Shown here one piece after another: positions 20,373 through 48,577 of a stretch of DNA of 64,000 bases (position 1 is the stretch's first letter; every line of letters starts with the position of its first letter). The stretch is from Pseudarthrobacter defluvii (GTDB taxonomy: Bacteria; Actinomycetota; Actinomycetes; Actinomycetales; Micrococcaceae): assembly GCF_030323865.1 (NCBI RefSeq), contig NZ_CP066362.1:1860001-1924000 (forward strand), read 5' to 3'. The notes below the pieces were generated by a model. It did no database searches. It was not told the origin of the DNA and was given only the letters and a program-made list of their open reading frames with translations. Position numbers and translations under genes: made by a program.

Positions 20373-20462
20373 TCACCGGAGGCCGCCTGCCAGCAGCAAC
20401 GCGACAGCCACAACGCATATGACCGCGATCACCGAAAGCGCCACCCACAGAAGCTTCTTCAT
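20373..20462 (-). CDS. Possible 29-residue membrane peptide
   Basis: The frame encodes MKKLLWVALSVIAVICVVAV plus a short Leu/Ala tail, a single transmembrane helix with two N-terminal lysines. GAAG lies close upstream of the ATG. Such micro-proteins exist in actinobacteria, but there is no independent support here. Confidence 0.35.
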   Translation of the reverse strand: MKKLLWVALSVIAVICVVAVALLLAGGLR

Positions 20463-20522
20463 GCTTCTAGTTTCGTCGCCGGGACGCATGCCCGCACCTG
20501 GTCCCCGCTCTGCGGACCGTCG

Positions 20523-20558
20523 GCGGACGACGGCGGGTGCCCGCCCGCCGTCGTCCGC
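20523..20558. repeat. Perfect 15-bp inverted repeat, 6-base loop
   Basis: GCGGACGACGGCGGG pairs with CCCGCCGTCGTCCGC around the loop TGCCCG, with no mismatch. No T-run follows on either strand, so it is not a classical terminator. It may be a REP-like element or an RNA structure. Confidence 0.7.
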
Positions 20559-20785
20559 TTCCTGCTCACTGCCCACCTTGGGGATTGCCGCCTCCCAAGC
20601 TCCCCGGAAGCGGCCTCCCAAAACTTCTTGCGCTTGTGCAATAGTTGCGAAAAAATAAAAACATAGGTTCTCCAGGGGAAACGCCGGTGCACGGCGGGCC
20701 CTGCATCTCAGTGCCAATTCCAAGGGAGAGCAACAGGCGTACTGGGGCGCGGTCTGATGAGCCATATCGCGAAGGAGCATTTCCT

Positions 20786-22135
20786 ATGGCACAGAACGTA
20801 ATGGCAGCAGCGGCAGTGGGTAATACCCGATGGAAGCGGTTGATCCCCGTCGCCATCATCGTCTACATCATCTCGTTCATGGACCGGACAAATATCGGGT
20901 TCGCCCTGAACGGGCTCCATCAGGACCTGGGCATTGACGCCGCCCAGCAGGGCCTGGCGGCAGGCATCTTCTTCATCGGGTATCTGGTCCTGCAGATACC
21001 AGGCGGCCATCTTGCCGAGCACTGGAGTGCCAAGAAGTTCGTGGGCATCATGGTGCTTATTTGGGGCGTGCTGGCTGTCCTTTCCGGGTTCATCCAGGAT
21101 TTCACCCAACTGCTCGTGGTGCGCTTCTTCCTTGGCGTGGCCGAGGCCGGCATCTGGCCCGCGATCCTTGTACTGATCAGCCATTGGTTCCCCGCCGCTG
21201 AGCGGGCACGGGCGTACGCGTTCTGGATGATGAACATCGCGATAGCCTCCATCATCACGGCGCCCCTCTCCGGGTGGATCCTTTCTTTCTCGGACTGGCG
21301 TTGGCTGTTCATCATCGAAGGCATATTCCCGTTCATCATTGCGGCCCCCCTATGGTGGGCGCTGATCGCCGACCACCCGCGCGAAGCGAAGTGGTGCTCG
21401 GTACAGGAGCGTGAATACATCGAGAAGGGACTTGCTGCTGACGCAGCGGCACACCCCCAGCAGGAAAAGCTGGGCCTGCGCCACGTCATGTCCAATTCAG
21501 TGGTATGGCGGCTGACCCTGGTGTACTTCCTCATCCAGATCGGCTTCTACGGCATCAACATCTGGCTGCCGCACGTGATCAAGACGATCACCTCCGGGTC
21601 CTCCATCGAGGTTGGCCTGATCACGGCAATTCCCTACGTGCTGGCAATGTTCGGCCTCTGGTACAACGCCAAAGCGGCCGACCGTACGGGCCGTTACTCC
21701 ACCCATGTGCTGCTGTCCATGGCAGTGGGAGCCGTCGCCCTGGTCATCTCGGTAGCTACCGGGGACAGCGCGCCGATCCTTGCCGTCACCCTCATCAGCA
21801 TCGCTGTCGCAGGTGCCCTGGCCTACGACGGTCCCTTCTGGGCTTCGGCGTCGCGTGCGATGCCGGTGGCCGTTGCGGGTGCTGCCATGGGGTTGATCAA
21901 CGCGGTCGGCAATCTCGGCGGGTTCGTCGGACCCTATGTAGGAGGCTTCCTGCAGGATGTGACGCATGGCAGCTTCCTGGCCACGTCCATTTTCCTGGCG
22001 GCATGCTTGCTGGCCGCGGGTTTGGTGATGCTGACACTGCGGCGCGGCGGTGACCGGCCGCTGGCCGGCAGCCGGTCGAGGGAGGGGCAACCCGAAAAGG
22101 CCAAGGCAGAATCACGCAGGAGGAATACCCTCTAA
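20786..22135 (+). CDS. MFS transporter, anion:cation symporter (ACS) family
   Basis: This 449-residue, 12-helix major facilitator has helix 1 VAIIVYIISFMDRTNIGFALNG, where the DRTN motif is typical of the ACS/phthalate-tartrate group. Other features are GYLVLQIPGGHLAEHWSAKK (motif A region), the long central loop near residues 195-225, and a second half beginning VVWRLTLVYFLIQIGFYGIN. AAGGAG lies nine bases before the ATG. It likely imports an organic acid by proton symport. No catabolic gene is adjacent on this strand; a sugar-acid operon lies beyond on the other strand. Confidence 0.92.
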   Translation: MAQNVMAAAAVGNTRWKRLIPVAIIVYIISFMDRTNIGFALNGLHQDLGIDAAQQGLAAGIFFIGYLVLQIPGGHLAEHWSAKKFVGIMVLIWGVLAVLSGFIQDFTQLLVVRFFLGVAEAGIWPAILVLISHWFPAAERARAYAFWMMNIAIASIITAPLSGWILSFSDWRWLFIIEGIFPFIIAAPLWWALIADHPREAKWCSVQEREYIEKGLAADAAAHPQQEKLGLRHVMSNSVVWRLTLVYFLIQIGFYGINIWLPHVIKTITSGSSIEVGLITAIPYVLAMFGLWYNAKAADRTGRYSTHVLLSMAVGAVALVISVATGDSAPILAVTLISIAVAGALAYDGPFWASASRAMPVAVAGAAMGLINAVGNLGGFVGPYVGGFLQDVTHGSFLATSIFLAACLLAAGLVMLTLRRGGDRPLAGSRSREGQPEKAKAESRRRNTL

Positions 22136-22153
22136 GGGTGCTTCGCACAAGGT

Positions 22154-22197
22154 GCATCGTTGGGCCGGCCTGCATTGCAACCCGGCCCCAATGATGC
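22154..22197. terminator. Hairpin between convergent genes
   Basis: A 15-bp stem with one bulge and one G-T pair (GCATCGTTGGGCCGG against CCGGCCCCAATGATGC) lies between the MFS gene and the convergent GH15 gene. There is no clear T-run; it may terminate in both directions. Confidence 0.45.
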
Positions 22198-22255
22198 CCA
22201 CTGCTTACGAGGCGATCACTCTGCCCGCTCGCTGAAAGCATCCAGTTCCCCCCGC

Positions 22256-24067
22256 CTAATCTTGGTGACGGTCTTCCGGGCTGTGCAGGGGAGTATTGCT
22301 TTGCCGTGAGCGCCCGTGCTGCAGTTGCAGGGCGCAGTGGATGAGCGGGAAGTGGCTGAAGGCCTGGGGTGTGTTGCCTAGTTGCCGCTGGTTCCGGGGG
22401 TCCCATTCTTCGCTGAGGAGGCCCACGTCGTTGCGGAGGCTGAGGAGGCGCTCAAAGAGTTCCTCGGCCTCGCGGCGCCGGTTGATCCCCAGCAGGGCGT
22501 CGACCAGCCAGAAGGAGCAGGCGAGGAACACCCCTTCCGTCCCGGGCAGGCCATCGTTGCTCGCCTGTGGGCGGTAGCGGAGGACAAAGCCGTCTTCGGT
22601 GAGGTGGTGCTGGATGGCTTCCACGGTGCCCACCACTCGGGGATGGTCGTGGGGCAGGAAGCCCACGCGGGGGATCAAAAGGAGGCTCGCGTCCAGCTCC
22701 TTGCTTCCATAGGACTGGACGAAGGTATTGCGCTCGCTGTCGAAGCCGTGCGTCATGACGTCCTGATGGATGGTGTCGCGCAGCGCCGACCAGCGCCCTT
22801 CCGGGCCCGGCAGCCCGGAGTGGCGGATGCCCTTGACCATGCGGTCCGCCGCCACCCAGCACATGACTTTCGAATGGGTGTTGTGGCGGCGGGGACCCCG
22901 CATTTCCCAGAGCCCGTTGTCGGGCTGGTCCCAGGCTCCCTCAAGGTATTCCATGAGGGCCACCTGGATGTCCCAGGAATCATCGGCAGTGTCCGGAAAG
23001 GCAGCGCGGGTCAGGGAGAGCCCGTCCAGGACCTCACCCCATACATCCAGTTGCAGTTGAGGAGCGGCGGCGTTTCCAATCCTGACCGGTTTGGAACCTT
23101 CGAACCCTGCAAGCCACGGCAGTTCCGTTTCCGGGAGGCGGCGGGTGCCGTCGATGCCGTACATGATCTGTAGATCGGCGGGGTCGCCGGCGACGGCGCG
23201 CAGCAGCCATTCCCGCCACGCCGCCGCTTCGTCGGTGTAGCCGCCGGCAAGCAGTGACTGCAGGGTTAAGGTGGCATCGCGAAGCCAGCAGAACCGGTAA
23301 TCCCAGTTCCTGGATCCGCCCGGGTCTTCCGGCAGGGAAGTGGTGGGGGCTGCGACGATGCCACCCGTGGGGGAGTAGATAAGCCCCTTGAGGGTGATCA
23401 ACGAACGTTCCACCGCGTCCTTGTACTTTCCCTCCATGCTGCTGCGGCCGATCCAGTTCCGCCAGAAGTTCTCCGTTGTTTCCAGCGCCTTCTCCGCGTC
23501 GGTTTCCGGCGGCGCCGGCTTGCTGCTGGGAACCCACCGCAGTACGAAGGGCACCCTTTCACCGGCCCGCACCGTGAAGTCACTGATCGTGCGCATGTCC
23601 CGGCCCTTGAGCGGGGCTGGGGTAGTGAGGTAGGCGGCGTCCGGGCCTGCGATGGCGATCAGGCGTTGATGGCTGCGCCTCACCCACGGCACGATATGGC
23701 CGTAATCGAAGCGCAGGCAAAGTTCCCCGTACATCTGCACGCTGCCCCGAAGGCCCTCGACAATACGCACCACGTCGGCGCCGTCGTCACGGATAGGCAT
23801 GAAGTCCGTGACCCTGACGCTTCCATCGGACGTTTCCCACTCGGTTTCGAGGATGAGCGTGCCGGGGCGGTACCGCCTGCGTGTGCACTTTCCTGCCCCC
23901 GCAGGTGCCAGCAGCCAGCGCCCCGCGGCGGGGGTGTCCAGCAAGGCGGCGAAACAGGCCGGGGAGTCAAAGTTCGGCAGGCACATCCAGTCGATTGACC
24001 CGCTGTTGTTGATCAGGGCAGCCGTGTGCAGGTCCCCCAGGAGCGCGTAATCGCTGATATCAGACAT
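22256..24067 (-). CDS. GH15 glucoamylase/trehalase-like glycoside hydrolase
   Basis: This 603-residue protein is of the actinobacterial GH15 type. It has an N-terminal beta-sandwich (ALLGDLHTAALINNSGSIDWM, FDSPACFAALLD) and an (alpha/alpha)6 barrel with SRNWDYRFCWLRDATLTLQSL, QLQLDVWGEVLDGL (a catalytic Glu candidate) and LSEEWDPRNQRQLGNTPQAFSH (second catalytic Glu). Family members hydrolyse trehalose or alpha-glucans. There is no signal peptide, so it is cytoplasmic. The ATG at 24067 has GGAAGGG upstream and overlaps the preceding gene by eight bases. It is probably the last gene of the long minus-strand run. Confidence 0.92.
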   Translation of the reverse strand: MSDISDYALLGDLHTAALINNSGSIDWMCLPNFDSPACFAALLDTPAAGRWLLAPAGAGKCTRRRYRPGTLILETEWETSDGSVRVTDFMPIRDDGADVVRIVEGLRGSVQMYGELCLRFDYGHIVPWVRRSHQRLIAIAGPDAAYLTTPAPLKGRDMRTISDFTVRAGERVPFVLRWVPSSKPAPPETDAEKALETTENFWRNWIGRSSMEGKYKDAVERSLITLKGLIYSPTGGIVAAPTTSLPEDPGGSRNWDYRFCWLRDATLTLQSLLAGGYTDEAAAWREWLLRAVAGDPADLQIMYGIDGTRRLPETELPWLAGFEGSKPVRIGNAAAPQLQLDVWGEVLDGLSLTRAAFPDTADDSWDIQVALMEYLEGAWDQPDNGLWEMRGPRRHNTHSKVMCWVAADRMVKGIRHSGLPGPEGRWSALRDTIHQDVMTHGFDSERNTFVQSYGSKELDASLLLIPRVGFLPHDHPRVVGTVEAIQHHLTEDGFVLRYRPQASNDGLPGTEGVFLACSFWLVDALLGINRRREAEELFERLLSLRNDVGLLSEEWDPRNQRQLGNTPQAFSHFPLIHCALQLQHGRSRQSNTPLHSPEDRHQD

Positions 24068-24686
24068 GGCTGCCCTTCCTGGCCGCATCTTTGAGTGATC
24101 GAACCGGAGGGGCTGCACGGCGGCCGGACCCCCGCGCAGCCCGAATAGCGAAGAGCACCGCCATTGCCGCCCCTAGGGCGGCCAGGACCAGACGAGCCCC
24201 GATTGTTGTTCGGGATACGGTGACCGGGCGGCCGGCCGTGCCGGGCCGGGTGACCTCGTTGGCCGGCACATCCCACGCCGCCGGGGGAGGGAAGGTCCCG
24301 GCCGGGAGTTTTTCTTGGCGCAGTTGTCGGCGGTAGGCAAGCCGCTGCCGGACATTCTGGTTGGGTGCGGCCACGGCAGCGTCTGCCGCGATCGCTGCCG
24401 GGAAGTCAATGATGTAAGGCTCACCGTAGAAGGCCGAGGAGGCTACCGACTCAAGCCAGGTGTTCGGCGGTGCCTCCACGCCGTGGGCAGCGAACGCAGA
24501 CCGGAGACTTTCCAGAATTTCCTCAAGGCTTTTGCCCTGCGCGTCCTTCGTGACTTCGAAGATGGCCAGTTGAAGCTGCAGTTTGGCATCCGCGCCAGGG
24601 TCTGACGCGCTGGGGTCCTGGCCCGTAGGGTCGGGATTCAGCGGTTCAGGGTTGGCGGGTCCGGCTTTGCCTGGATTGAAGCTCAT
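24060..24686 (-). CDS. Hypothetical protein with C-terminal membrane helix
   Basis: This 208-residue protein has no recognised family. It has a Pro-rich N terminus, then an amphipathic domain (LQLQLAIFEVTKDAQGKSLEEILESLRSAFAAHGV) and WLESVASSAFYGEPYIIDFP. A single C-terminal helix (RLVLAALGAAMAVLFAIRAARG) is followed by a basic tail, so it is a tail-anchored protein facing the cytoplasm. AAAGGA upstream supports the ATG at 24686. It overlaps the GH15 start and lies just downstream of the broken ZIP gene. Confidence 0.75.
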   Translation of the reverse strand: MSFNPGKAGPANPEPLNPDPTGQDPSASDPGADAKLQLQLAIFEVTKDAQGKSLEEILESLRSAFAAHGVEAPPNTWLESVASSAFYGEPYIIDFPAAIAADAAVAAPNQNVRQRLAYRRQLRQEKLPAGTFPPPAAWDVPANEVTRPGTAGRPVTVSRTTIGARLVLAALGAAMAVLFAIRAARGSGRRAAPPVRSLKDAARKGSHV

Positions 24687-24707
24687 AAGGATCCTTTCAG
24701 ACGTGTT

Positions 24708-25278
24708 TTAGCCGCCTACTTGGTCAACGGTGAAGGCTGCCAGGAATCCGGCGGCGGCGATGAGGAGACGTATTGGCGCTGCGGCCTGCCTTCTTCATGC
24801 CGGCTGTGCTGGAGAGGCCTTCGGGGACGTTGGAGATGAAGACGGCGGCCAGCATGGCAGGACTGACTGCACCGGCGGTCACCAGGCCGACGCCGAGGAC
24901 CACTGATTCCGGAACTCCGTCCAGCAGTGCGCCCACGGCGATCGCGGTGCCGCTGCCTGGCTTTTGTTGTTCCGACTGCTGCTTCCCGCCCGACCGTTTG
25001 CGGTGTTTGGCGCCTTTGCGGGCGAGGAGTGCGTTGGCGGCGACGTAAACGACGGCGCCGGTGGCGAAGCCTCCGATGGTGGGCCAGAGGCCGCCGCCGT
25101 TGACTGCTTCTTCCACCAGTTCAAAGGCGAGCGCTGAGATCAGCACGCCGGCGCCGAAGGACATCACCGAAGACACCACCTTGGAGGGAATCTTCCACTT
25201 CCATGCCAAGGCGCACCCGACCACCAGAGCGCCGCCGGCGATGGTGCCCCACATCCAGGCCAGCAACCATGCCGGCAT
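24708..25278 (-). pseudogene. ZIP-family metal transporter, broken by internal deletion
   Basis: The N-terminal two thirds is a clear ZIP transporter: membrane helices, a His/Lys-rich loop (RKGAKHRKRSGGKQQ), and the signature VGALLDGVPESVVLGVGL and AVFISNVPEGLSSTAGMKKAGRS. After that the reading frame shifts to junk and stops at 24724. The third frame in the same place reads RLLIAAAGFLAAFTVDQVGG and ends at 24708, which is the expected last helix of a ZIP protein. About 60 residues (two or three helices) are missing and the join is out of frame. The ATG at 25278 has GGAG upstream. The gene is probably non-functional. Confidence 0.82.
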
Positions 25279-37316: not shown

Positions 37317-37908
37317 TATCGTGTTCCTTTTGGCGGGTGGGTCGCGGGGTTTGGGACAGGACTGCTGCCCGGGCAGACGACTTCGCGGCGTTGACTACTG
37401 AGCGCGACTGGGTCAGCCTGCCGGTGGCAAGCGCCCCATCGATCAGCAGCCCAAGATGGCCGGCAAGGTGTTCCGGGTCCGTGGCGTTCGCCTCCCGGCT
37501 CAATTCGAGGAGCCACTGGTAGCGGCGCTTGACGTGGTGCAGCGTGGCCTGTCTGGCAGCCGAGTCCAGGGCTGCCTCCACACCGGCACTGACGAAGGGG
37601 CACCCGAAGAATCCGTGCCGGTCGAACGCGTCCGACAGTGCGTCAAAAAGTGCCACGAGCCGGTCCCGGGGCTGGGCTGCCTGTTGGGCTGCGGACTGTA
37701 ACTGTTCAAGCCAGGCGACGTCCGTGCGGGCCAGATAAGCAGCCACGAGGTCATCCTTTGTCCGGAAGTGGGTGTACAGGGTCGACTTGGAGACTCCGGA
37801 TGCGGCGACCACATCGTCCACCCCGACCCCGCGGATGCCGGACTCATAGAACAGTCCTGCTGCTGCCTCCAGGATCCTGTCCACCGATCGGGTGCGGCGC
37901 TTTGTCAT
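37306..37908 (-). CDS. TetR-family repressor
   Basis: This 200-residue protein has HTH RILEAAAGLFYESGIRGVGVDDVVAASGVSKSTLYTHFRTKDDLV near the N terminus (positions 8-52), with a typical TetR_N layout. The C-terminal ligand domain (FGCPFVSAGVEAALDS) is common in reductase-linked regulators. The start at 37908 has AAGGAGGAG seven bases upstream. It sits first in the two-gene operon and likely binds the palindrome at 37925-37940 to repress itself and the quinone reductase. Confidence 0.92.
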   Translation of the reverse strand: MTKRRTRSVDRILEAAAGLFYESGIRGVGVDDVVAASGVSKSTLYTHFRTKDDLVAAYLARTDVAWLEQLQSAAQQAAQPRDRLVALFDALSDAFDRHGFFGCPFVSAGVEAALDSAARQATLHHVKRRYQWLLELSREANATDPEHLAGHLGLLIDGALATGRLTQSRSVVNAAKSSARAAVLSQTPRPTRQKEHDNDV

Positions 37909-37924
37909 CAGGCTCCTCCTTAAT

Positions 37925-37940
37925 CGAACTGATCTGTTCG
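37925..37940. promoter_or_regulatory. TetR-type operator CGAACTGATCTGTTCG
   Basis: This 16-base sequence is symmetric at 14 of 16 positions. It lies about 17 bases before the repressor start and overlaps a TATACG -10-like element on the minus strand, as expected for autorepression. Confidence 0.6.
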
Positions 37941-38068
37941 TATAAGTAGACGTGCAGGCGTTGTATTCCCGGCCATCTTCCCCCTGGTTCCTCGGCTGGA
38001 ACTTCACTGGGAATGCTTCGAACGGGACACGCCCAACCATGTCCTGTTACACCTGCCGTGGTCCGGGG

Positions 38069-38074
38069 TAAGCT
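38069..38074 (+). promoter_or_regulatory. Leaderless -10 box (TAAGCT) for fdhA
   Basis: TAAGCT is six bases before the ATG at 38081; TTACAC lies 16 bases further upstream as a possible -35. Confidence 0.5.
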
Positions 38075-38080
38075 CCAGAA

Positions 38081-41000
38081 ATGGCACCGCGAAGTTTTCT
38101 TCAATGGCCGGTCGTCCGTCAGCTGAGCACGGGCGACCTGCTTGGCCGTGGCCCAGCGGTCACATCGGCCAAGACCAAGGCAATAGCTCCACGCACCGCC
38201 ACTGCTGACCGTGTGGTGCAGAGCGTTTGTCCCTACTGCGCCGTCGGCTGCGGACAGCGTGTTTATGTGAAGGACGAAAAGGTAGTCCAGATCGAGGGCG
38301 ATCCGGATTCCCCCATTTCCCGCGGCCGGCTGTGCCCCAAAGGCTCTGCCAGCGAGCAGCTGGTCAATTCGCCGGGCCGGCAGACCAAGGTGCTCTACCG
38401 TGCACCGCGTTCCACTGAGTGGGAACACCTGGACCTGGAGACGGCCATTGACATGGTGGCGGACCGGTTTATCGAGACCCGCCGCAGGACCTGGCAGCAG
38501 GAAGACGACCAAGGCCGGCTGCTGCGGCGCACCATGGGCATCGCCTCGCTGGGCGGCGCGACCCTGGACAACGAAGAGAATTACCTCATCAAGAAGCTCT
38601 TCACGGCTGCAGGGGCGGTGCAGACCGAGAACCAAGCCCGCATATGACACTCCGCCACGGTTCCCAGTTTGGGAGCCTCGTTTGGACGCGGTGGTGCAAC
38701 GCAATCACTGCAGGACATGGCCAACGCCGACTGCATCGTCATCCAGGGTTCCAACATGGCCGAGTGCCACCCTGTGGGCTATCAGTGGGTAGCGGAGGCG
38801 AAGGCACGCGGAGCGAAGGTCATCCACGTCGATCCCCGCTTTACGCGCACGTCTGCCGTCTCGGATAAGCACATACCTATCCGGGCCGGCTCGGATGTCG
38901 TGCTTCTTGGCGCGCTCATCAACTACGTGATCAGCAATGATCTCTGGTTCAAGGAGTACGTCAGCGCATACACCAACGCTGCCACGTTGGTCCACGACGA
39001 TTACCGCGATGCCGAGGATCTGGGCGGGCTGTTCTCCGGCTTCGATCCGGAGAAGGGTGCCTACGACACGTCGTCATGGGCGTACGCCGAACGTGAGGAC
39101 GGCGCCATCGACGAGCCCGGGCCCGGGTCGGAACACGGGGCCAATGGGACGGCGCGCGCTACCGGCCATTCGTACGGCAGTGGTGGTCCGCCCTTGGAGC
39201 ACGCCGAAGTCCAGCGGGACGATACCCTTCAGGACCCCCGGACCGTCTTCCAGATCGTGAAGCGGCACTACGCCCGTTACACGGCGGAGATGGTGCAGGA
39301 CATGTGTGGCATCAGTGTGGCGGATTTCGAGTACCTGGCGCGTACCATCACGGAGAACTCCGGACGCGACCGGACCACCTGTTTCGCCTATGCCGTTGGC
39401 TGGACCCAGCACTCGCTGGGAACGCAGTTCATCCGGGGTGCCGCCATCCTGCAGCTCCTGCTCGGAAACGTGGGACGCCCGGGCAGTGGCATCATGGCCC
39501 TGCGCGGACATGCCAGCATTCAGGGTTCCACCGACATCCCGACGCTGTTCAACCTGCTGCCCGGGTATCTGCCGATGCCCAGCGCGGGCCGCCACGACAG
39601 CCTCGAAGAGTATCTGTCCGTTATTGGGTCGAAGCAGCAAAAAGGTTACTGGGCTAACGCGGACGCTTACACCATCAGCCTTTTGAAGGCATGGTGGGGT
39701 GACGCCGCGACCGCGGACAACGACTGGGCCTACGACTACCTTCCCAGGCTGACCGGAGCGCACGGTACGTACGAAACCGTGATGGGGATGCTCGAGGACG
39801 AGGTGGAGGGCTACTTCATCCTCGGACAAAATCCTGCAGTGGGTTCGGCTCATGGCCGGATGCAGCGGATGGGCATGTCGCACCTGAAGTGGCTCGTGGT
39901 TCGGGACTTGAACATGATCGAGTCCGCTACCTGGTGGAAAGACGGTCCGGAGATCGAATCGGGGGAGCTGCGCACCGAAGACATCGAGACCGAGGTGTTC
40001 TTCATGCCGGCGGCAACCCACGTCGAGAAAGCCGGATCCTTCACCCAGACCCAAAGGCTGCTGCAATGGCGGCACCAGGCGGTTGCACCGCCAGGGGAGT
40101 GCCAAAGCGAACTGCAGTTCTTCTTTGAACTGGGCAAGCGGATCCGGGAGAGGCTGGCCGGTTCCCAGGATGAGCGCGACCGTCCCCTGCTCGACCTGAC
40201 TTGGGACTATCCCACGGACGAACACGGCGATCCCGATGCCGAGTCGGTCCTTGCCGAGATCAACGGCCGTCACCTGGCGGGTCCGGACGCAGGGAAACCC
40301 CTGTCCTCCTACACGGAGATGCAGGCTGACGGATCCACGTCTGGCGGCTGCTGGATCTACACCGGTGTTTACGCTGACGGCTTCAACCATGCCGCCAACC
40401 GCAAGCCGGGCCAGGAACAGGGACCGGCTGCTTCGGAGTGGGGCTGGGCATGGCCGGCCAACCGCCGGATTCTCTATAACCGTGCCTCGGCGGACCCGGA
40501 CGGCAAGCCGTGGAGCGAGCGGAAGAAATACATCTGGTGGGACCAGGAGCAGGGCAAATGGGTCGGAGACGACGTGCCCGACTTCCCGGTTGACCGCGCC
40601 CCGGGCAGCAAACCCGATCCCTCGGTTGGTGGTCCTGCCGCCCTCAGCGGTGATGATCCCTTCATCATGCAGGCTGACGGCAAGGGCTGGCTGTTTGCGC
40701 CGAAGGGCCTCATGGACGGACCCCTGCCCACGCACTACGAGGCGCAGGAGTCACCGGTGGCCAACGCGCTGTACCCGCAGCAGCAGAACCCCGCGCGGCT
40801 GGTGTTCCCCCGCAAGGACAACCTGAGTGCCCCAAGCGCAGGGACCAGTGGCTCCGACGTCTACCCGTATGTCTTCACCACGTACCGGCTGACCGAGCAC
40901 CACACGGCGGGCGGCATGAGCCGTTGGCTTCCGTACCTCTCCGAGCTGCAACCGGAGATGTTCTGCGAGGTCTCGCCGCAGCTGGCGGCCGAACGCGGTC

Positions 41001-41416
41001 TTGAACCTTATGGGTGGGCCACGATTATTTCGGCGCGTTCCGCCATTGAGGCCAAAGTGCTGGTCACTGACCGCATGGCGCCCCTCCAGGTTGGTGGCCA
41101 CACGGTGCACCAGATCGGGTTGCCCTACCACTGGGGCGTCGGCAGCAATGCCGTCGTCAGCGGCGACGCTGCCAACGACCTGCTGGGTGTGACGCTGGAT
41201 CCCAACGTCCAGATCCAGGAATCGAAGGTGGCATCCTGTGACATCCGGCCGGGCCGCCGGCCCCGCGGGAAGGAGCTGCTTGCCTTGGTTGCTGAGTACC
41301 AGGAACGGGCCGGCGTGACCATTGAGACCGGCAACCGCGCCGTCACCGATCCCGCGGTGGAAGGGCTCCAACCCCGCCCCGATGAAAAGGGCAGCACCGA
41401 GGGTGGGGAGCATTGA
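38081..41416 (+). CDS. fdhA: Formate dehydrogenase alpha subunit, selenoprotein (UGA = Sec at codon 189)
   Basis: This protein of about 1,111 residues oxidises formate to CO2 at a molybdenum/tungsten bis-pterin site. The N-terminal [4Fe-4S] Cys motif is C50-x2-C53-x3-C57 with C85 in RLCPKG. TGA at 38645-38647 interrupts one frame in the context QARI-U-HSATVP, which is the conserved Sec/Cys-His active site, and the frame continues without change to 41416. Later motifs include GRGGATQSLQDMANADCIVI, HVDPRFTRTS and the C-terminal molydopterin dinucleotide domain (MFCEVSPQLAAERG). A hairpin follows the UGA. No Tat signal is present, so the catalytic side probably faces the cytoplasm. selABCD lie directly downstream. 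Confidence 0.95.
38645..38680 (+). promoter_or_regulatory. SECIS-like hairpin after the UGA
   Basis: GGTTCCC (38659-38665) pairs with GGGAGCC (38671-38677) around loop AGTTT, starting 11 bases after the UGA. Bacterial SECIS hairpins sit in this position and SelB binds the GU in the loop. Confidence 0.68.
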
Positions 41417-41517
41417 TGAGCCCGCTTCCCACCGCTTCAGTTGAAGCACACATTGCCCCGCCCGGAACGCCGCCTGCCGGTGGCGTTCCGGGCACCGACC
41501 CGACGACGGAGGACTAG
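41416..41517 (+). CDS. 33-codon small ORF between fdhA and fdhB
   Basis: The ATG at 41416 overlaps the fdhA stop (TGATG), with GTGGGGAG six bases upstream. The frame (MSPLPTASVEAHIAPPG, then a Gly/Pro/Thr-rich end) stops at TAG directly before the fdhB ATG. It uses no hydrophobic helix and no Cys. The tight coupling suggests a real translated peptide or a coupling device rather than a spacer. No family is recognised. Confidence 0.5.
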   Translation: MSPLPTASVEAHIAPPGTPPAGGVPGTDPTTED

Positions 41518-42525
41518 ATGGGCCAGCTGTCCGGACCGACCGACCCCACCGCCGATGCCCATTGGGAGCACAATCATCCGCGCAAGGGGTTCTTCACCGA
41601 CACCTCGATCTGCATTGGCTGCAAGGCCTGTGAAGTTGCCTGCAAGGAGTGGAACCACAACCCGCAGGACGGAAACCTGGAACTGCTCGGGTCCTCCTAC
41701 GACAACACCGGATCGCTGGGTGCCAGCACCTGGCGGCATGTCGCCTTCATCGAACAGGGCCAGGAACGGATTGTTGAGGCGCGGGAATCAGGCCGCGCCC
41801 TGGTCAGCCTGGGCATGCCCCGCATTGGTCCTCCGGCCGCGGCAGCGCCGGTCACGGACTTGGCGGACGCTGATACCACCCCGCCGGACACCGCTGACTT
41901 CCGGTGGCTGATGTCCTCGGATGTCTGCAAGCACTGCACCCACGCCGGCTGCCTTGACGTCTGTCCCACTGGCGCACTGTTCCGCACCGAGTTCGGCACT
42001 GTCGTGGTCCAGGATGACGTCTGCAATGGCTGCGGAACCTGCGTGGCCGGCTGCCCCTTCGGCGTGATCGAGCGCCGCAGCAACGGCACGGTCAAGGTTG
42101 CCAGCAGCAGGGAAGAACAGCACGCCAAGCATCCCGCCGTCCCCAACGAGGGCATCGCCCAGAAGTGCACGCTGTGCTACGACCGGCTGGTTGATGACCA
42201 GACGCCTGCATGCGCCAAGGCATGCCCGACGACGTCCATCAAGTTCGGCGACCACGATGACATGGTGGACACGGCCCGGGAACGGGTGGCCACCCTGCAT
42301 GCGCAGGGCATGACCGAGGCAAGGCTTTACGGGGCGAACGAAAACGACGGCGTCGGCGGAACCGGATCAGTCTTCCTGCTGCTCGACGAACCCGAAGTGT
42401 ACGGTCTTCCGCCGGACCCCCGGGTTCCCACCGCAGACTTGCCGAAGATGTACCGCCGGGCCGGAATGGCCGTGGCGGGCATGGCCGCGGCCGCTGCGCT
42501 GGCCTTCCTGGGAGGACGGGCGTGA
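41518..42525 (+). CDS. fdhB: Formate dehydrogenase beta (Fe-S) subunit
   Basis: This 335-residue electron-transfer subunit carries four [4Fe-4S] motifs: CIGCKACEVAC (C32-C42), CKHCTHAGCLDVCP, CNGCGTCVAGCP and CTLCYDRLVDDQTPACAKACP. A C-terminal helix (RAGMAVAGMAAAAALAFLGG) anchors it in the membrane, as in FdnH/HybA-type proteins. GGAGG five bases before the ATG sets the start. It overlaps the NrfD-type gene by four bases (GTGA). Confidence 0.95.
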   Translation: MGQLSGPTDPTADAHWEHNHPRKGFFTDTSICIGCKACEVACKEWNHNPQDGNLELLGSSYDNTGSLGASTWRHVAFIEQGQERIVEARESGRALVSLGMPRIGPPAAAAPVTDLADADTTPPDTADFRWLMSSDVCKHCTHAGCLDVCPTGALFRTEFGTVVVQDDVCNGCGTCVAGCPFGVIERRSNGTVKVASSREEQHAKHPAVPNEGIAQKCTLCYDRLVDDQTPACAKACPTTSIKFGDHDDMVDTARERVATLHAQGMTEARLYGANENDGVGGTGSVFLLLDEPEVYGLPPDPRVPTADLPKMYRRAGMAVAGMAAAAALAFLGGRA

Positions 42526-43610
42526 CCCTCTCAGAGTTCGACAGCTTCCGTCCCTCAGAGCCTGCCCGCCGCCGGCAGGGCGGCAAGCGCGGCACCGGCC
42601 GCCGCCGGGACAATGGTGACGGCTCGCGGGAAATGCCCATGGTGCCGGAGCCCGAGTTCACCTCGTACTACGGCCGTCCGGTGGTCAAACCGGCTCCATG
42701 GGGCGACGACGTGGCCATCTACCTCTTTCTGGGCGGGGTGGCAGGTGGATCGGCCCTCCTCGGTCTTGGCGGTCAGCTGACCGGCCGGCCAATCCTTCGC
42801 CGCAACGCCCGGCTGGGCGCCTTGACGGCAGTAAGCGCCGGCGCCGTTGCCCTGGTGAAGGACCTGGGCAGGCCGGAGCGTTTCCTGCACATGCTGCGGA
42901 CCTTCAAGGTGACGTCGCCCATGAGTGTTGGCTCGTGGATCCTCAGCGCCTTCAGCGCGGGCACGGCCGTGACGGCGGTGGCGGAAATCGACCGGATGAC
43001 GGGAAGCCGGCTTCCGCTGGGTCCGTTGCGGAAGGTCCTGCATGCAGTTGAAGGCACGGCAGGGGTCGAAGCGGCGGTCTTCGCAGGGCCACTGGCCGCG
43101 TACACGGCTGTCCTGCTTGGCGACACCGCCACCCCGACGTGGAACGCCGCGCATGAGGAACTGCCATTCGTCTTCGTCAGTTCGGCATGCCTCGCTTCTG
43201 CCGGCCTCGCCATGGTCACCACACCCATCCACGAGACAGGGCCCGCCCGGAAACTTGCTGTGCTCGGTGTCCTGGGCGACGTCGCTGCCATGAAGGTGAT
43301 GGAGCACCGGATGGATCCGGTGGCCGCGGAGCCCCTGCACCAGGGCAAGGCGGGCACCATGCTGAAGTGGAGCGAGCGGTTGGCGTTGGCCGGCGGCCTG
43401 GGGACACTGTTCGCAGGACGCAACCGCGTGGTTGCGGCAGTTTCAGGATTGGCGTTGCTGTCCGCTTCGGCACTGACCCGCTTCGGCGTGTTCGAAGCTG
43501 GCCTCGCCTCTGCCAGGGATCCGCGGTACACCATCGAACCCCAGAAGAACCGGCTCGCTGCCCGCCGTGCTGCCGGGGTGACCGGGGACGCGATCACCAC
43601 CGCCAGCTGA
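42522..43610 (+). CDS. NrfD/PsrC-type membrane subunit of the formate dehydrogenase
   Basis: This 362-residue polytopic protein has eight or so helices and no heme ligands arranged like FdnI, so it is NrfD-like (quinone-interacting, heme-free). The N-terminal stretch is Arg-rich and soluble (PARRRQGGKRGTGRRRD), and PAPWGDDVAIYLFLGGVAGGSALLG is the first helix. It likely passes electrons from FdhB to menaquinone. The GTG at 42522 is coupled to fdhB. Some family members also bear the name FdhC/HybB. Confidence 0.88.
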   Translation: MTLSEFDSFRPSEPARRRQGGKRGTGRRRDNGDGSREMPMVPEPEFTSYYGRPVVKPAPWGDDVAIYLFLGGVAGGSALLGLGGQLTGRPILRRNARLGALTAVSAGAVALVKDLGRPERFLHMLRTFKVTSPMSVGSWILSAFSAGTAVTAVAEIDRMTGSRLPLGPLRKVLHAVEGTAGVEAAVFAGPLAAYTAVLLGDTATPTWNAAHEELPFVFVSSACLASAGLAMVTTPIHETGPARKLAVLGVLGDVAAMKVMEHRMDPVAAEPLHQGKAGTMLKWSERLALAGGLGTLFAGRNRVVAAVSGLALLSASALTRFGVFEAGLASARDPRYTIEPQKNRLAARRAAGVTGDAITTAS

Positions 43611-43622
43611 GGGGGCAGCGGG

Positions 43623-44648
43623 TCAGCGGACCTCGATGCCCCGCCCAGCGGTGGTGTGGCCGATCACGGGGTAGCCCGGCAGCTCGCCGACCACCAGCAG
43701 GCCGCCTGAGGTCTGGGCGTCGGCCAGAAGCAGCAGGTCGTCTTCGGTGACACCCGCGGCTGAGCCCAGGTGCGGCCGCACCCAATCGAGGTTGCGCCGG
43801 GTCCCGCCGGAGACGAAACCGTCGCGGAGGGCCTCCCGCGCGCCCTCGATCAGCGGAACGGCCTTCAGATCGATCACGGCGCCCACTTCCGAAGCGCGGA
43901 CCATCTTGTAAAGGTGCCCCAGCAGCCCAAAACCCGTCACGTCGGTGGCCGCCCGGACGCCGGCGGCAACCGCGGCGTCGGCTGCGTCCCGGTTGAGGGC
44001 CGCCATGGTCTCCAGCGCTTCAGCGAATACCTCACCGGTCTGTTTGTGCCGGTTGTTGAGAAGTCCGACGCCGAGTGGTTTGGTGAGCGTGATCGGCAGC
44101 CCGGGCTGCGCGGCGTCGTTGCGGAGCAGCCGGTCGGGGTGGGCGACGCCAGTAACGGCCATGCCGTACTTCGGCTCAGGATCGTCAATGGAGTGGCCGC
44201 CGAGCACCGGGCAGCCCGCCTGGGATGCCACGCTCAGCCCCCCGCGGAGGACTTCGGTCATCAATTCCATCGGCAGGACACCGCGGGGCCACCCGACAAG
44301 GTTGATCGCCGTGACTGGCTTGCCACCCATCGCGTAGATGTCCGAGAGGGCATTGGCGGCCGCAATCCTGCCCCAGTCGAAGGCATCGTTGACCACGGGA
44401 GTAAAAAAGTCAGCGGTGGTAAGGACGGCCAGATCATCGCGGACCAGGACCGCCGCGGCGTCGTCGCCGCTGTCCAGGCCGACCAGGACCTCCGCGCCCG
44501 GCTGGCCGATCAGGCCACGGACCGCATCCTCGAGTTCACCGGGCGGAATTTTGCAGGCGCAGCCCCCACCGTGGGCATAGTCGGTGAGCCGGAGCGCACC
44601 GGCAACACCATCATCAACTTGCTGGACTGATGTCTGAGCCTCATTCAC
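43623..44648 (-). CDS. selD: Selenophosphate synthetase
   Basis: This 341-residue enzyme makes selenophosphate from selenide and ATP. The active site is HGGGCACKI with Cys30 (E. coli Cys17) and Lys33. VGLDSGDDAAAVLV is the ATP/metal site, and later glycine-rich loops (LGGHSIDDPEPKYG, TDVTGFGLLGHL) match the PurM-like fold. The Cys form is used, not Sec. The GTG at 44648 follows TACGCT by six bases (leaderless). It is convergent with the NrfD gene and divergent from selC. Confidence 0.95.
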   Translation of the reverse strand: MNEAQTSVQQVDDGVAGALRLTDYAHGGGCACKIPPGELEDAVRGLIGQPGAEVLVGLDSGDDAAAVLVRDDLAVLTTADFFTPVVNDAFDWGRIAAANALSDIYAMGGKPVTAINLVGWPRGVLPMELMTEVLRGGLSVASQAGCPVLGGHSIDDPEPKYGMAVTGVAHPDRLLRNDAAQPGLPITLTKPLGVGLLNNRHKQTGEVFAEALETMAALNRDAADAAVAAGVRAATDVTGFGLLGHLYKMVRASEVGAVIDLKAVPLIEGAREALRDGFVSGGTRRNLDWVRPHLGSAAGVTEDDLLLLADAQTSGGLLVVGELPGYPVIGHTTAGRGIEVR

Positions 44649-44654
44649 CCGCCA

Positions 44655-44660
44655 AGCGTA
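44655..44660 (-). promoter_or_regulatory. Leaderless -10 box (TACGCT) for selD
   Basis: On the minus strand TACGCT is six bases before the selD GTG. It lies next to, and opposite, the selC promoter. Confidence 0.45.
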
Positions 44661-44679
44661 CCCCTCCAGTTAACCCTGC

Positions 44680-44685
44680 TATATT
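44680..44685 (+). promoter_or_regulatory. -10 element (TATATT) for selC
   Basis: TATATT ends seven bases before the first base of the tRNA, the expected distance for a -10 box. No clear -35 is seen. Confidence 0.6.
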
Positions 44686-44692
44686 GAGGCGC

Positions 44693-44787
44693 GGTGGCGT
44701 CCGGGTCCTGGTGGGCCCCCCGGTCTTCAAAACCGGTGAGGCTGAGCATCTCGGCCTGGCGGGTTCGATTCCCGTCCGCCACCGCCA
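44693..44787 (+). tRNA. selC: tRNA-Sec, anticodon UCA
   Basis: The 95-nt RNA has an acceptor stem GGTGGCGT against CCGCCACC (seven of eight pairs), a 6-bp D-stem with a 4-base loop (GGGTCC/GGGCCC), anticodon stem CCGGT/ACCGG with loop CTTCAAA (UCA at 44727-44729), a long variable arm, a T-arm with TTCGATT, discriminator G and encoded CCA. Length and D-arm match bacterial tRNA-Sec, which reads UGA. It is followed 36 bases later by selA. Confidence 0.95.
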
Positions 44788-44823
44788 AACTACCGGCGTG
44801 ATTGCCGCGAAAAGAGGAGGGCT

Positions 44824-46155
44824 GTGGACCAGGTCGATCCCCGGCGGCTGATTCCCCGCACGAACGACCTGCTGGCGCTGCCGGCCGTCCGCGAGGCCCG
44901 GACGCGGCTGAATGAGCGCGTCGTCCGCGAACTCGTCCGGAAGGTCCAGGAGCAGGCCCGCCGCGGTGAGCTGGCTCCCGGCAAGGTGGAACCCGCCCTG
45001 CTGGCCGCCGTCGCTTCATTGAAAGCAACAACCCTTCGCCCGGTGCTGAACGCAACCGGTGTCATCGTGCACACGAACCTCGGCCGTGCCCCCCTTTCCG
45101 CAGCCGCGGTGGAAGCCCTTGTCGCTGCCAGCGGCTACGTTGACGTGGAGCTGGACCTGGCAGACGGCAGCCGCTCCCGCCGCGGTGCCGGCGCCCGGGC
45201 TGCCCTCCTCGCTGCCTGTCCTGCGGCCGAGGACGCCCTGGTAGTTAACAACGGGGCGGCTGCACTGGTGTTGGCCACCACAGCCCTGGCCGCCGGCCGG
45301 GAGGTAGTTGTGAGCCGAGGAGAACTCGTCGAGATCGGCGCAGGCTTTCGACTGACCGATTTGATGGAGTCGACGGGCGCGGTGCTTCGCGAGGTGGGCA
45401 CCACCAACCGGACCCACCTGCACGACTACGCGGGCGCCCTCGGGCCGGACACAGGCTGCGTCCTCAAGGTGCATCCGAGCAATTTCCGCGTGGACGGCTT
45501 CACGTCCGCAGTTTCGATTGACGAACTGAGCCGGCTGACTGCCGCAAATGGGATCCCGCTTGTGGCTGACCTGGGCAGTGGGCTGCTGGCTCCCGATCCC
45601 TACCTGCCCGACGAGCCGGATGTTGCCTCCGCCTTAGCGGGCGGTGCGGACGTCGTCATTGCCAGCGGTGACAAACTGCTGGGCGGGCCCCAGGCCGGCT
45701 TGCTGCTGGGCCGCAAGGAGATCATCACCAGGCTGGCCCGGCACCCGCTCGCCCGTGCGGTCCGGGCGGACAAGCTTGCCCTGGCCGCCTTGGAGGCGAC
45801 GGTCGCCGGTGGGCCGCCGCCGGTGGTCGAGGCGCTGCACGCCGACGTCGAACAGTTGCGGCGCCGTACTGACAGGCTCGCCGAAGCCCTCGGGGTACCC
45901 GTGGAGGCCCATGACGGACGGGTGGGCGGCGGCGGTGCCCCCGGCTTTCCGCTGCCGGGGTGGGCGCTCCGGCTGCCCGAGGGAATTGCGGGACGCTTGC
46001 GCACCGGCCACCCTGCCGTGCTGCCGCGCGTCCACGATGGCGCCTGCCTGATCGACCTGCGGTGTGTGCCGCCCGCCGACGACGATCGGATTCTTGACGC
46101 CGTACGCCAGGCATTGGCAACCCTCGACGTGGCAGACGCAGGCAGGGCGGGCTGA
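44824..46155 (+). CDS. selA: L-seryl-tRNA(Sec) selenium transferase
   Basis: This 443-residue PLP enzyme converts Ser-tRNA-Sec to Sec-tRNA-Sec using selenophosphate. LRPVLNATGVIVHTNLGRAPL, YVDVELDLADGSRS, VVNNGAAALVLAT and the PLP lysine SGDKLLGGPQAG (Lys284) are all present. The N-terminal helical domain (DLLALPAVREARTRLNERVV) binds the tRNA. GAGGAGGG upstream sets the GTG at 44824. It is co-transcribed with selC and lies three bases before selB. Confidence 0.96.
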   Translation: MDQVDPRRLIPRTNDLLALPAVREARTRLNERVVRELVRKVQEQARRGELAPGKVEPALLAAVASLKATTLRPVLNATGVIVHTNLGRAPLSAAAVEALVAASGYVDVELDLADGSRSRRGAGARAALLAACPAAEDALVVNNGAAALVLATTALAAGREVVVSRGELVEIGAGFRLTDLMESTGAVLREVGTTNRTHLHDYAGALGPDTGCVLKVHPSNFRVDGFTSAVSIDELSRLTAANGIPLVADLGSGLLAPDPYLPDEPDVASALAGGADVVIASGDKLLGGPQAGLLLGRKEIITRLARHPLARAVRADKLALAALEATVAGGPPPVVEALHADVEQLRRRTDRLAEALGVPVEAHDGRVGGGGAPGFPLPGWALRLPEGIAGRLRTGHPAVLPRVHDGACLIDLRCVPPADDDRILDAVRQALATLDVADAGRAG

Positions 46156-46158
46156 ACC

Positions 46159-47955
46159 GTGCACGTCGTTGCCACTGCCGGACATGTCGATTCCGGGAAA
46201 AGTACCCTGGTCCGCGCCCTGACCGGCATGGAACCGGACCGCTGGGAGGAAGAGCGGCGCCGCGGGCTGACGATCGACCTCGGCTATGCGTGGACAACGT
46301 TGCCGTCCGGCCAGGACGTTGCCTTCGTTGACGTTCCCGGCCACGAACGCTTCCTTGGCAACATGCTTGCCGGCATCGGACCCGCGCCTGTGGTCTGCTT
46401 CGTCGTGGCCGCGGACGAGGGCTGGCAGGCCCAGTCAAGCGACCATCGCGATGCGGTCGCCGCGCTCGGAATTGAACACGGCGTTGTCGTGCTCAGCCGC
46501 GCGGACCGGGCATCCGGGCAGCGGGTCGCCGACGTGCTGTCGCGGACCCGCACGGAGCTGGCAGGGACCGGGCTGCGGGATGCTCCAGCCATCGCCGTGT
46601 CGGCCATCGACGGCACCGGCTTGGCTGAGTTGCGTGCAGCGCTCGACGGCGTCCTTGCCCGGGTGCCTGCCCCCACCACCACCGGGAGGGTCCGGCTGTG
46701 GGTGGACCGGTCATTCACGATCACCGGTTCCGGGACGGTGGTCACCGGAACACTGGCTGCGGGCACACTCGCCCAGGGTGACCGGTTGGAACTGCTCGGC
46801 CACTCAGGGTCCCGGCCTGTGGCGGTCCGCGGCCTGCAGAGCCGCGACACCTCATACCCGTCGGTGGAGCCGGTCAGCCGGGTGGCGTTGAACCTGCGCG
46901 ATGTAGCCGCAACGGACATCCGGCGCGGGGATGCGCTGGTTACCCCTGGCGCCTGGCCCACCACCGGCGTCGTAGGCATCCACCGCACTACCGGCGTGGC
47001 CTATACCGAGGTGCCCGAGCAAATCATGGTTCATGTCGGCACGGCGTCCGTGCCGGCGCGCCTGCGTCCCTTCGGGGCCGACCACGCCCGGCTGGTCCTC
47101 GACAGGCCCTTGCCCCTGGTTCTCGGGGACCGGCTGGTGCTGCGCGACCCCGGCAGCCGCTCGGTCCTGGGTGGGGCGCGCATTCTCGACGCCGACCCAC
47201 CGGAGCTGCGGCGGCGCGGTGACGGCGCGCATTGGGCTGAACGGCTTTCGGGCATGGACCCCGCAGGAGACATTCTGGGGGAAGTGGCAGCCCGCGGAGC
47301 CGTCCAGGTGGATCATCTCCGCAAGCTTGGGCTGCTGCCCGGGCACGGCACGGAAGCCCCTCAGGGCGTGCGGGTTTTCGGTGACTGGTGGGTGCATGCC
47401 CCTGTCCTGGAGGCATGGCAGCACCGGCTCCGCACTGCGGTCGAGGCGCTGCAGGAGAAGGACCCCTTGGTCCCGGGCCTTTCCATGGGTGCGGCGCGGG
47501 ACCTGCTCAGGTTGCCTGAGGAGAGGCTGCTTTCCCATCTGATCCGCGGGGCGGAGCTGGAGCAGGAGGGTGGCCACATCCGGTTGCCGGGCAGCCAGGA
47601 CAACCTTGGTCCCATCGAGCTGGCAATCGTCCAGTTGGAGCGCAGGCTCAGCGCGGCCGCGTTCCACGCCCCGGAAGCCGACGAGCTGGCTGCCTTGGGC
47701 CTCGGCGCACGGGAACTGGCCGCCGCAGAACGCACGGGACGGTTGCTGCGTCTTCGCGATGGGGTGGTGCTGCTTCCCACGGCGCCGGCACTCGCGATGC
47801 GCACGCTTGCCGGCCTGGCCCAGCCCTTCACCACCAGCCAGGCACGACAGGCGCTGGACACCACACGCCGGATTGCGGTTCCACTGCTGGAGCACCTCGA
47901 TTCGCGCGGCTGGACCAAACGGATTGATGCCGGTCACCGCACAGTGGTGCGCTGA
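46159..47955 (+). CDS. selB: Selenocysteine-specific elongation factor
   Basis: This 598-residue factor delivers Sec-tRNA to the UGA at the SECIS. The GTPase domain has G1 GHVDSGKST (residues 8-16), G2 RRGLTIDLGYAW, G3 DVPGHERF and G4 LSRAD (113-116 SRAD in place of the usual TKAD). EF-Tu-like domains II and III follow (TGSGTVVTGTLAAGTL). Four winged-helix repeats form the C-terminal SECIS-binding part. The GTG start is three bases past selA. Together with selA, selC and selD this completes the set. Confidence 0.96.
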   Translation: MHVVATAGHVDSGKSTLVRALTGMEPDRWEEERRRGLTIDLGYAWTTLPSGQDVAFVDVPGHERFLGNMLAGIGPAPVVCFVVAADEGWQAQSSDHRDAVAALGIEHGVVVLSRADRASGQRVADVLSRTRTELAGTGLRDAPAIAVSAIDGTGLAELRAALDGVLARVPAPTTTGRVRLWVDRSFTITGSGTVVTGTLAAGTLAQGDRLELLGHSGSRPVAVRGLQSRDTSYPSVEPVSRVALNLRDVAATDIRRGDALVTPGAWPTTGVVGIHRTTGVAYTEVPEQIMVHVGTASVPARLRPFGADHARLVLDRPLPLVLGDRLVLRDPGSRSVLGGARILDADPPELRRRGDGAHWAERLSGMDPAGDILGEVAARGAVQVDHLRKLGLLPGHGTEAPQGVRVFGDWWVHAPVLEAWQHRLRTAVEALQEKDPLVPGLSMGAARDLLRLPEERLLSHLIRGAELEQEGGHIRLPGSQDNLGPIELAIVQLERRLSAAAFHAPEADELAALGLGARELAAAERTGRLLRLRDGVVLLPTAPALAMRTLAGLAQPFTTSQARQALDTTRRIAVPLLEHLDSRGWTKRIDAGHRTVVR

Positions 47956-47988
47956 CCGGGCTGTCAGGCAGCAGGTCTGGAAAGACGA

Positions 47989-48504
47989 CTAGGCCGGCTC
48001 GGTTGACTGGACGCGCCGCAGGATGTCGTCCACCACGCGTGCGAGCGGCGCGGTGGCGTCGATAGCGATGCCGCCAGATGGGATTTCTTCCCGTGTTTGG
48101 TACAGGTGCTCAATCAGGTCCCGTTCTGTTCGCCGTCCTCCCCATTCGTCCTCCGGGCGCTGGTCAAGCCGTCGCTTCAACGTTTCCAGGTCCACCTCGA
48201 GGACGAAGACGCCATCGAAGAGATCGATGAACTTGACGAGATTCCGCGAGCCGCCGCAGAAGAAGGTCAACGCTTCCCGCTGGTCTGCGGCCAACGCCCT
48301 GACCTTGTCCACTCTCCAGAGGTGGTGCCGGTGAACGGCGACTCCGGTGATGCCCCCGACCGGCTCGCCGGTTTCCGGGTTACCTTGATAGGCGAGTTCG
48401 CGGTCGCCGTTGATGGCCTCATAGCCCCGCCGCCGCAGTTCATTGCAGACTGCAGTCTTGCCGGTTCCAGAGCCGCCTTCGATCAGGTAGTTCTTCCTGC
48501 CCAT
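47989..48504 (-). CDS. P-loop nucleotide kinase-like protein
   Basis: This 171-residue protein has Walker A GGSGTGKTA (residues 10-18), an acidic GDRELAYQ segment, GGITGVAVHRHHLWR and an Arg-rich lid (LKRRLDQRPEDEWGGRRTERD). It is probably a small nucleoside-type kinase or an adenylate-kinase-like phosphotransferase. TACCAT lies five bases before the ATG, fitting a leaderless start. It is convergent with selB. Confidence 0.8.
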   Translation of the reverse strand: MGRKNYLIEGGSGTGKTAVCNELRRRGYEAINGDRELAYQGNPETGEPVGGITGVAVHRHHLWRVDKVRALAADQREALTFFCGGSRNLVKFIDLFDGVFVLEVDLETLKRRLDQRPEDEWGGRRTERDLIEHLYQTREEIPSGGIAIDATAPLARVVDDILRRVQSTEPA

Positions 48505-48509
48505 GCCTG

Positions 48510-48515
48510 ATGGTA
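48510..48515 (-). promoter_or_regulatory. Leaderless -10 box (TACCAT)
   Basis: TACCAT is five bases before the kinase ATG on the minus strand. Confidence 0.42.
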
Positions 48516-48577
48516 CCGATCATGGCCAGGGGCAGTTCTCCCCGTGTCCCTTTCGGGCAGTTGGGCCGGGGGCTGCC

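Follow-up and report, generated by a model that had tools for sequence, protein, structure and literature searches.

A 64,000-nucleotide stretch of Pseudarthrobacter defluvii DNA (NZ_CP066362.1, positions 1,860,001 to 1,924,000; hereafter the window) carries, at 38081-47955, a formate dehydrogenase gene (fdhA) interrupted by an in-frame UGA, together with genes for two further subunits and selD, selC, selA and selB. With high confidence, we read these genes as a self-contained selenocysteine (Sec) module that would serve a membrane-bound formate dehydrogenase, its genes apparently being inherited, and at times transferred, as a ~9.9-kb block. This reading draws on protein family matches, the tRNA, the alignment of the UGA with Sec, a downstream hairpin, gene co-occurrence and order, trees of the block compared with rpoBC, a plasmid copy and the presence of FdhD. 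The sequence anatomy, the UGA-Sec alignment, the conservation of the hairpin, the co-occurrence and a conflict common to the trees are direct observations.

An earlier note, made from the letters of this DNA alone, had identified selD, selC (95 nt, UCA), selA and selB beside fdhA, placing selenium supply, tRNA, charging and decoding within about 10 kb of their target. ARAGORN, Rfam RF01852 and NCBIfam matches confirm these identifications, and the extent of the block agrees with the distance. All four sel genes needed for Sec decoding are present in the block, with SelD, SelA and SelB each scoring above their NCBIfam cut-offs.

The UGA of fdhA and the hairpin that follows it

As the earlier note had described, the fdhA frame is open throughout except for a single UGA, which sits 188 codons past the ATG and thus is codon 189 (Table 1). 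With the UGA translated as U, FdhA matches NCBIfam family NF041513 (formate_DH_Act) over residues 6-1076 of 1111, scoring above the curated cut-off of 1400 bits, and the UGA lies inside its Pfam molybdopterin domain match (154-590). In the solved structures 1h0h and 1kqf (E. coli FDH-N), the residue aligned with the UGA is given as X (Sec). A search for the homologous site in 73 loci, of which those from a class-wide genome sample were best matches only, located it in 71; of the other two, L113 is the sel half alone and L129 ends at a contig end. The codon is TGA at 58 of the 71 sites, TGC at 12 and TGT at one, which, with the alignment, bears out the note's placement of the UGA where formate dehydrogenases have Sec or Cys.

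The note had also reported a hairpin after the UGA, and comparison among relatives supports this bacterial Sec insertion sequence (SECIS) element (GGUUCCC at 38659-38665, loop AGUUU at 38666-38670, GGGAGCC at 38671-38677). In 39 copies from the family, synonymous variation, expressed relative to the mean per amino acid, reaches its minimum for the gene at the UGA; the four lowest of 930 11-codon windows start at codons 0, -1, -3 and +1 relative to it. Pairing was assessed against 500 shuffles, which take no account of relatedness, in a set of 47 non-identical sequences drawn from both samples, family and class. Of the stem cells, 95.4% were paired and 19 carried changes in both partners; the score for covariation was 0.245. 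None of the 500 shuffles reached any of these values. Pair 21-27 changes from C-G to U-A in four of the 47 sequences and pair 18-30 is changed on both sides in 11. Three of the seven stem pairs are invariant and hence uninformative, and pairing is lost at pair 15-33 in eight sequences, at pair 17-31 in five and at pair 18-30 in two.

The element also distinguishes Sec from Cys copies. All 58 Sec copies form at least six of the seven stem pairs (96.1% of cells paired) and have the loop RGTYT (GGTCT, AGTTT or AGTCT), whereas the 13 Cys copies are 62.6% paired, with six pairs in two (an unbroken run in one of them, L004), the loop GGTCT kept in two, and stem and loop together in none. Position +6 after Sec is Pro in 58/58 Sec copies versus 0/13 Cys copies; because all Cys copies fall in one clade, this contrast counts as a single comparison. 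In 1h0h and 1kqf, the Sec enzymes of the structural alignment, the residue is Ala. When a hairpin model built from fdhA copies was run on the whole genome, fdhA was the sole site among the 150 of 3671 first-look candidates that were scored; selenoproteins of other types may have escaped such a model.

Co-occurrence, gene order and transfer of the block

The earlier note had proposed comparing the block across relatives for gain or loss as one unit; in this comparison, UGA-containing fdhA and SelB co-occur and gene order is kept, in line with such a unit. Among 149 genomes of the family, FdhA scored above its cut-off in 42, 41 of them with the UGA and one (G104) with Cys only, and SelB scored above its cut-off in 40, the next match (200.8 bits) being taken as EF-Tu. 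SelB was found in 39 of the 41 UGA-fdhA genomes, and fdhA in all 40 SelB genomes (the copy in G125 is cut before the UGA). In the class sample, 54 of 197 genomes had FdhA above the cut-off, 46 with the UGA. There SelB exceeded its cut-off in 43 genomes and 11 more scored 228-242 bits, with the next group at 214; with these 54 genomes counted as SelB-like, 45 of the 46 UGA genomes have a match, or 34 of 46 under the curated cut-off alone. No TAG-interrupted FdhA copy was listed above the cut-off in either sample. Nine class genomes (G152, G162, G190, G226, G287, G297, G298, G305 and G330) have a SelB-like protein and no full UGA copy of the NF041513 family, so beyond the bacterial family of the window SelB does not go with this type of fdhA only. 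G152, G162, G190, G298, G305 and G330 have no NF041513-family FdhA above the cut-off at all, and presumably have other selenoproteins.

We compared the block and ~4 kb on each side in 39 carriers (40 stretches; the upstream flank is short or missing in G015, G073 and G125). Each carrier has one tRNA-Sec (UCA), and gene order and orientation agree in 38 of the 39, two of these ending at contig ends; in the exception, G001 (L117), the selC-selA-selB half is inverted. In G060 (L112, L113), ~11 kb lie between nrfD and selD. A search of the 39 carrier stretches for the genes next to the block in the window gave neither tetR nor kefF, its upstream neighbours, and gave the downstream kinase in one (G039). 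Within the genus, DNA similarity spans window positions 38025-47957 in G123 and 38055-47957 in G009, and extends beyond selB in G039 (38023-48518), which also shares ~60 bases upstream of the block. In ungapped 30-base windows compared with the window sequence, similarity falls to 0.5-0.67 over the 30 bases immediately upstream of the ATG and to ~0.3 farther out for G123, G009, G078 and a plasmid copy described below (0.53 further upstream for G018); directly past the selB stop it is 0.2-0.4 in all five. Decay of non-coding flanks also gives such edges, so these are no proof of insertion.

No 10-mer direct or inverted repeat is shared between 37800-38110 and 47900-48250, and profile searches found no transfer, integrase or transposase genes among the six proteins of the block. 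The block thus does not qualify as a mobile genetic element and looks like a passenger. Searches with the flanks of the window (~4.5 and 5.4 kb), G123 and G009 (~4 kb per side), in seven or eight genomes each, gave no hits that show the two sides joined in a genome lacking the block at that place, and thus no clean empty site.

Trees point to transfer between genera. Genera were set beforehand by group codes; the pair G009 and G078, the latter from another genus, was first noticed in a quick tree. In rpoBC, the same-genus carriers G000 (the window genome), G039, G009 and G123 form one clade with 100/100 support. The block alignment rejects this clade (log-likelihood 185.6 lower; P value of the approximately unbiased test, p-AU, 5.7e-10), and rpoBC rejects G009 with G078 (p-AU 8.3e-53), where G078 is represented by rpoB only. 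Codons were projected onto the window sequence, which omits insertions. When analysed separately, all five gene sets (fdhA, fdhB+nrfD, selD, selA and selB) unite G009 with G078 (98-100% bootstrap), and each of them rejects the genus clade, most weakly selD (p-AU 0.0385). Presence and absence require 14 changes on a 60-genome rpoBC tree (40 carriers and 20 non-carriers), a number that is not an unbiased rate because the non-carriers were chosen. Genus g7 as a single clade in the block tree was not rejected (p-AU 0.19). Genus g8, considered as a further transfer case, was rejected weakly as a clade (p-AU 0.024), but rpoBC likewise gave no single g8 clade and the case was not counted. The window genome has some of the neighbourhood of its block in common with G039, its sister in rpoBC, and nothing shows a recent arrival of the window copy.

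A whole copy of the block, 82.4% identical and with the tRNA-Sec, UGA and hairpin, lies at 15017-24890 of pYA7-1a (NZ_CP110115.1, L192), a plasmid of 129,773 bases from Arthrobacter sp. YA7-1 that was the best match in a plasmid collection. The plasmid is typed as conjugative (MOBP, MPF_T; MOB-suite typing via PLSDB), and its block joins G000, G123 and G039 at 100/100. pYA7-1a is a candidate vehicle for the block. A Tn3-family transposase gene lies 224 bases past selB, with a recombinase also nearby; among the matches listed (25 of the 46 inverted pairs, and 20 of the 25 families of direct repeats), there is no obvious inverted-repeat pair bracketing the copy and the transposase. Together, the SelB co-occurrence, the order kept without the window's flanking genes, the tree conflict across five gene sets and this plasmid copy support the note's proposal that the compact unit could be transferred as a block. 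A PF03432 relaxase, the only relaxase family searched, was present in 17 of 40 carriers and on the contig of the block only in G102:C1 and G103:C1, both >1 Mb; with several block contigs being short drafts, this is weak evidence that a plasmid location may not be the rule.

Other plasmid-related records were also noted. The block is present at 5640-15192 of a Tsukamurella record named "plasmid 17" (NZ_LR134459.1, L193), typed as non-mobilizable, which may be a mislabelled chromosomal contig. In the plasmid collection, 21 records, including Enterococcus, Terrisporobacter and rhizobia, encode a relative of SelB with an E value of 1e-40 or lower. In the window genome, the three smaller contigs, C2, C3 and C4, each carry a relaxase and thus are probably plasmids.

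In a tree of 71 FdhA proteins, all 13 with Cys fall into a single distant clade (Shimodaira-Hasegawa-like approximate likelihood ratio test 99; quick tree, unrooted). Four family genomes have a Cys-type FdhA (L002, L003, L004 and L005 in G018, G084, G104 and G121, of which all but G104 also carry a Sec type), and given the single clade these copies probably were acquired rather than converted in place. The earlier note had regarded a Cys-encoding relative lacking sel genes as evidence against the module. Taking absence of SelB as the measure, nine such genomes exist in the two samples: no SelB-like match was found in the one Cys-only family genome (G104) or in the eight of the class (G150, G183, G184, G246, G266, G268, G306 and G336). 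They do not refute the module, because the complete element of hairpin and loop has been lost from their copies, which belong to one separate clade; the pattern fits ordinary Sec/Cys exchange.

Weighing the alternatives

Several observations weigh against a Sec module passed on as one block. The hairpin folded as a single sequence is non-significant (z -1.30; 23/200 shuffles equally good), so its case rests on comparison, and within that comparison two measures are unexceptional: three pairs show double changes (a number reached in 70/500 shuffles) and seven further pair types occur (reached in 94/500). UGA-fdhA is present without SelB above the cut-off in G021 and G148, where both fdhA copies are near contig ends, and without a SelB-like match in one of the 46 class UGA genomes, the draft G180. 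In addition, the fdhA tree joins G039 with G018 (68/94), whereas the selD, selA and selB trees join it with G000 and G123, suggesting that parts of the block may also recombine. Strictly vertical inheritance in the family, with patchy presence due to losses only, would find some support in the block tree, where four of the eight genera represented by two or more carriers are single clades, and patchiness by itself cannot tell gain from loss. We consider it unlikely, however, given that all five gene sets join G009 with a genome of another genus at bootstrap values of at least 98%, that the whole block rejects a genus clade for which rpoBC gives full support while rejecting the alternative pair, and that a copy resides on a plasmid typed as conjugative.

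We give almost no credence to the idea that fdhA is a broken gene with a true stop, its 915-residue downstream frame being translated separately from a start of its own. A mechanically called open reading frame with a TTG start (38669-41416) does exist, but the UGA recurs at most of the located sites with Cys at all the rest, synonymous variation is low around it, SelB presence tracks UGA-fdhA, and the molybdopterin domain crosses the codon. Slightly more credible, though still very unlikely, is a UGA that is read through next to a hairpin that exists only because the protein is conserved in this segment. The stem does lie within a well conserved peptide, its three unvarying pairs say nothing, two of the five pair measures fall inside the shuffle range, loss of the element in the single Cys clade is one comparison, and Cys copy L004 retains a run of six pairs. 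Such an explanation is at odds with constraint acting on synonymous sites, as in the four lowest windows, with the paired changes at 21-27 and 18-30, and with a loop found in every Sec copy versus two Cys copies.

Features of the block and comparison with known systems

The features of the block are collected in Table 1. The adjoining Fer4-domain subunit and NrfD-type anchor identify the enzyme as a membrane-bound formate dehydrogenase, with FdhB below the TIGR01582 cut-off. The -10-like motif upstream of fdhA ends within ~10 bases of the ATG in the window and several relatives, which suggests that the fdhA mRNA may be leaderless; a sigma-70 consensus promoter scan of 37900-48100 predicted none. 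Formate dehydrogenase activity requires FdhD, which is encoded in the same genome outside the block.

Table 1. Features of the Sec block (window positions)
Feature	Position	Strand	Basis
fdhA, Sec-containing formate dehydrogenase catalytic subunit	38081..41416	+	NF041513 1977.2 bits; aligned to 1h0h, 1kqf
UGA codon 189, read as Sec	38645..38647	+	aligned with Sec of solved structures
Bacterial SECIS hairpin, 7-bp stem and 5-nt loop AGUUU, 11 nt past UGA	38659..38677	+	pairing, synonymous constraint, Sec versus Cys copies
fdhB, iron-sulfur subunit	41518..42525	+	TIGR01582 165.2 bits, below cut-off 334.7; Fer4 Pfam domains
NrfD-type membrane subunit	42522..43610	+	PF03916 67.3 bits
selD, selenide water dikinase, Cys (not Sec) in HGGGCACK motif	43623..44648	-	TIGR00476 384.4 bits
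selC, tRNA-Sec, 95 nt, anticodon UCA	44693..44787	+	ARAGORN; Rfam RF01852 78.3 bits, cut-off 47
selA, L-seryl-tRNA(Sec) selenium transferase	44824..46155	+	TIGR00474 411.9 bits
selB, Sec-specific elongation factor with SelB winged-helix domain	46159..47955	+	TIGR00475 274.6 bits; PF09107 52.6 bits
TATATT, probable -10 of selC	44680..44685	+	sequence
Probable -10 region, GGGGTAAGCTCC in window, GGGATATGCTCC in several relatives	38065..38076	+	upstream listing of relatives

We infer the biochemical steps, Sec insertion and the physiological role from known biology. FdhA, FdhB and the NrfD-type anchor would form the membrane-bound enzyme. SelD would make selenophosphate, the seryl-tRNA synthetase of the cell would load serine onto tRNA-Sec, and SelA would turn the seryl-tRNA into Sec-tRNA, which SelB, bound to the hairpin 11 nt past the UGA, would bring to the ribosome so that the UGA is read as Sec, a predicted metal ligand at the active site. 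The block would pass on, and at times move, as one unit. A bolder idea, to which we give a little less than an even chance, sees in the block a mobile amino-acid kit: conjugative plasmids such as pYA7-1a would take this 9.9-kb passenger from genus to genus, and a naive actinobacterium would gain the 21st amino acid and a protein using it together. The idea further holds that part of the protein sequence is set by the hairpin and not by the enzyme. The block provides a clean natural case of decoding machinery and target moving together, and the 10-kb unit is suited to asking whether a naive Arthrobacter gains Sec in a single step. For annotation, fdhA here should be read through its UGA; general knowledge of selenocysteine is unchanged by the block.

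The kind of system is already known: an NF041513-type formate dehydrogenase with clustered sel genes. FdhA of the window matches the family over its full length with no difference found, and other family matches above the cut-off carry Cys. The note's transferable block is supported, but the arrangement is not new (PMC1794560, PMC5029168, PMC7176365). A closely related described case is Actinomycetospora chiangmaiensis, for which selenium-dependent formate removal and detection of SelA, SelB and SelD are reported (PMC7176365). Its FDH1 cluster likewise combines a Sec-containing FdhA, FdhB and FdhC with SelA and SelB; unlike the window, a permease is included in the table of that paper, which does not give SelD under the cluster. 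The paper describes three Sec formate dehydrogenase systems, of which the other two may share formate removal with FDH1, versus one match above the family cut-off here.

In Proteobacteria, selA, selB and selC are described as clustered with fdhA, and transfer is argued to need both (PMC1794560); fdoGHI lies with selABCD on pSymA (PMC8124441). As in the window, a formate dehydrogenase selenoprotein sits beside its decoding genes and transfer as a unit has been proposed, but the taxa and gene order differ, the window selD, encoded on the minus strand, separating the nrfD-type gene from selC. Transfers of sel genes have been reported (PMC1273633), as has a tRNA-Sec with anticodon CUA in Geodermatophilaceae (PMC5330540). 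Transfer of the Sec trait into two Arthrobacter recipients is described with formate dehydrogenase as the sole selenoprotein and, for most donors and recipients, with the genes lying near one another, as here; those donors were outside the suborder of the recipients, whereas the transfer found here is between genera of one family (PMC5029168). A literature search covering few subscription journals found no paper on conjugative plasmids with a Sec block, strain YA7-1 or selenoprotein transfer in Micrococcaceae. To these known systems, the present analysis adds transfer of the block from one genus to another, as tested on trees, and a plasmid-borne copy that falls in the same clade as that of the window.

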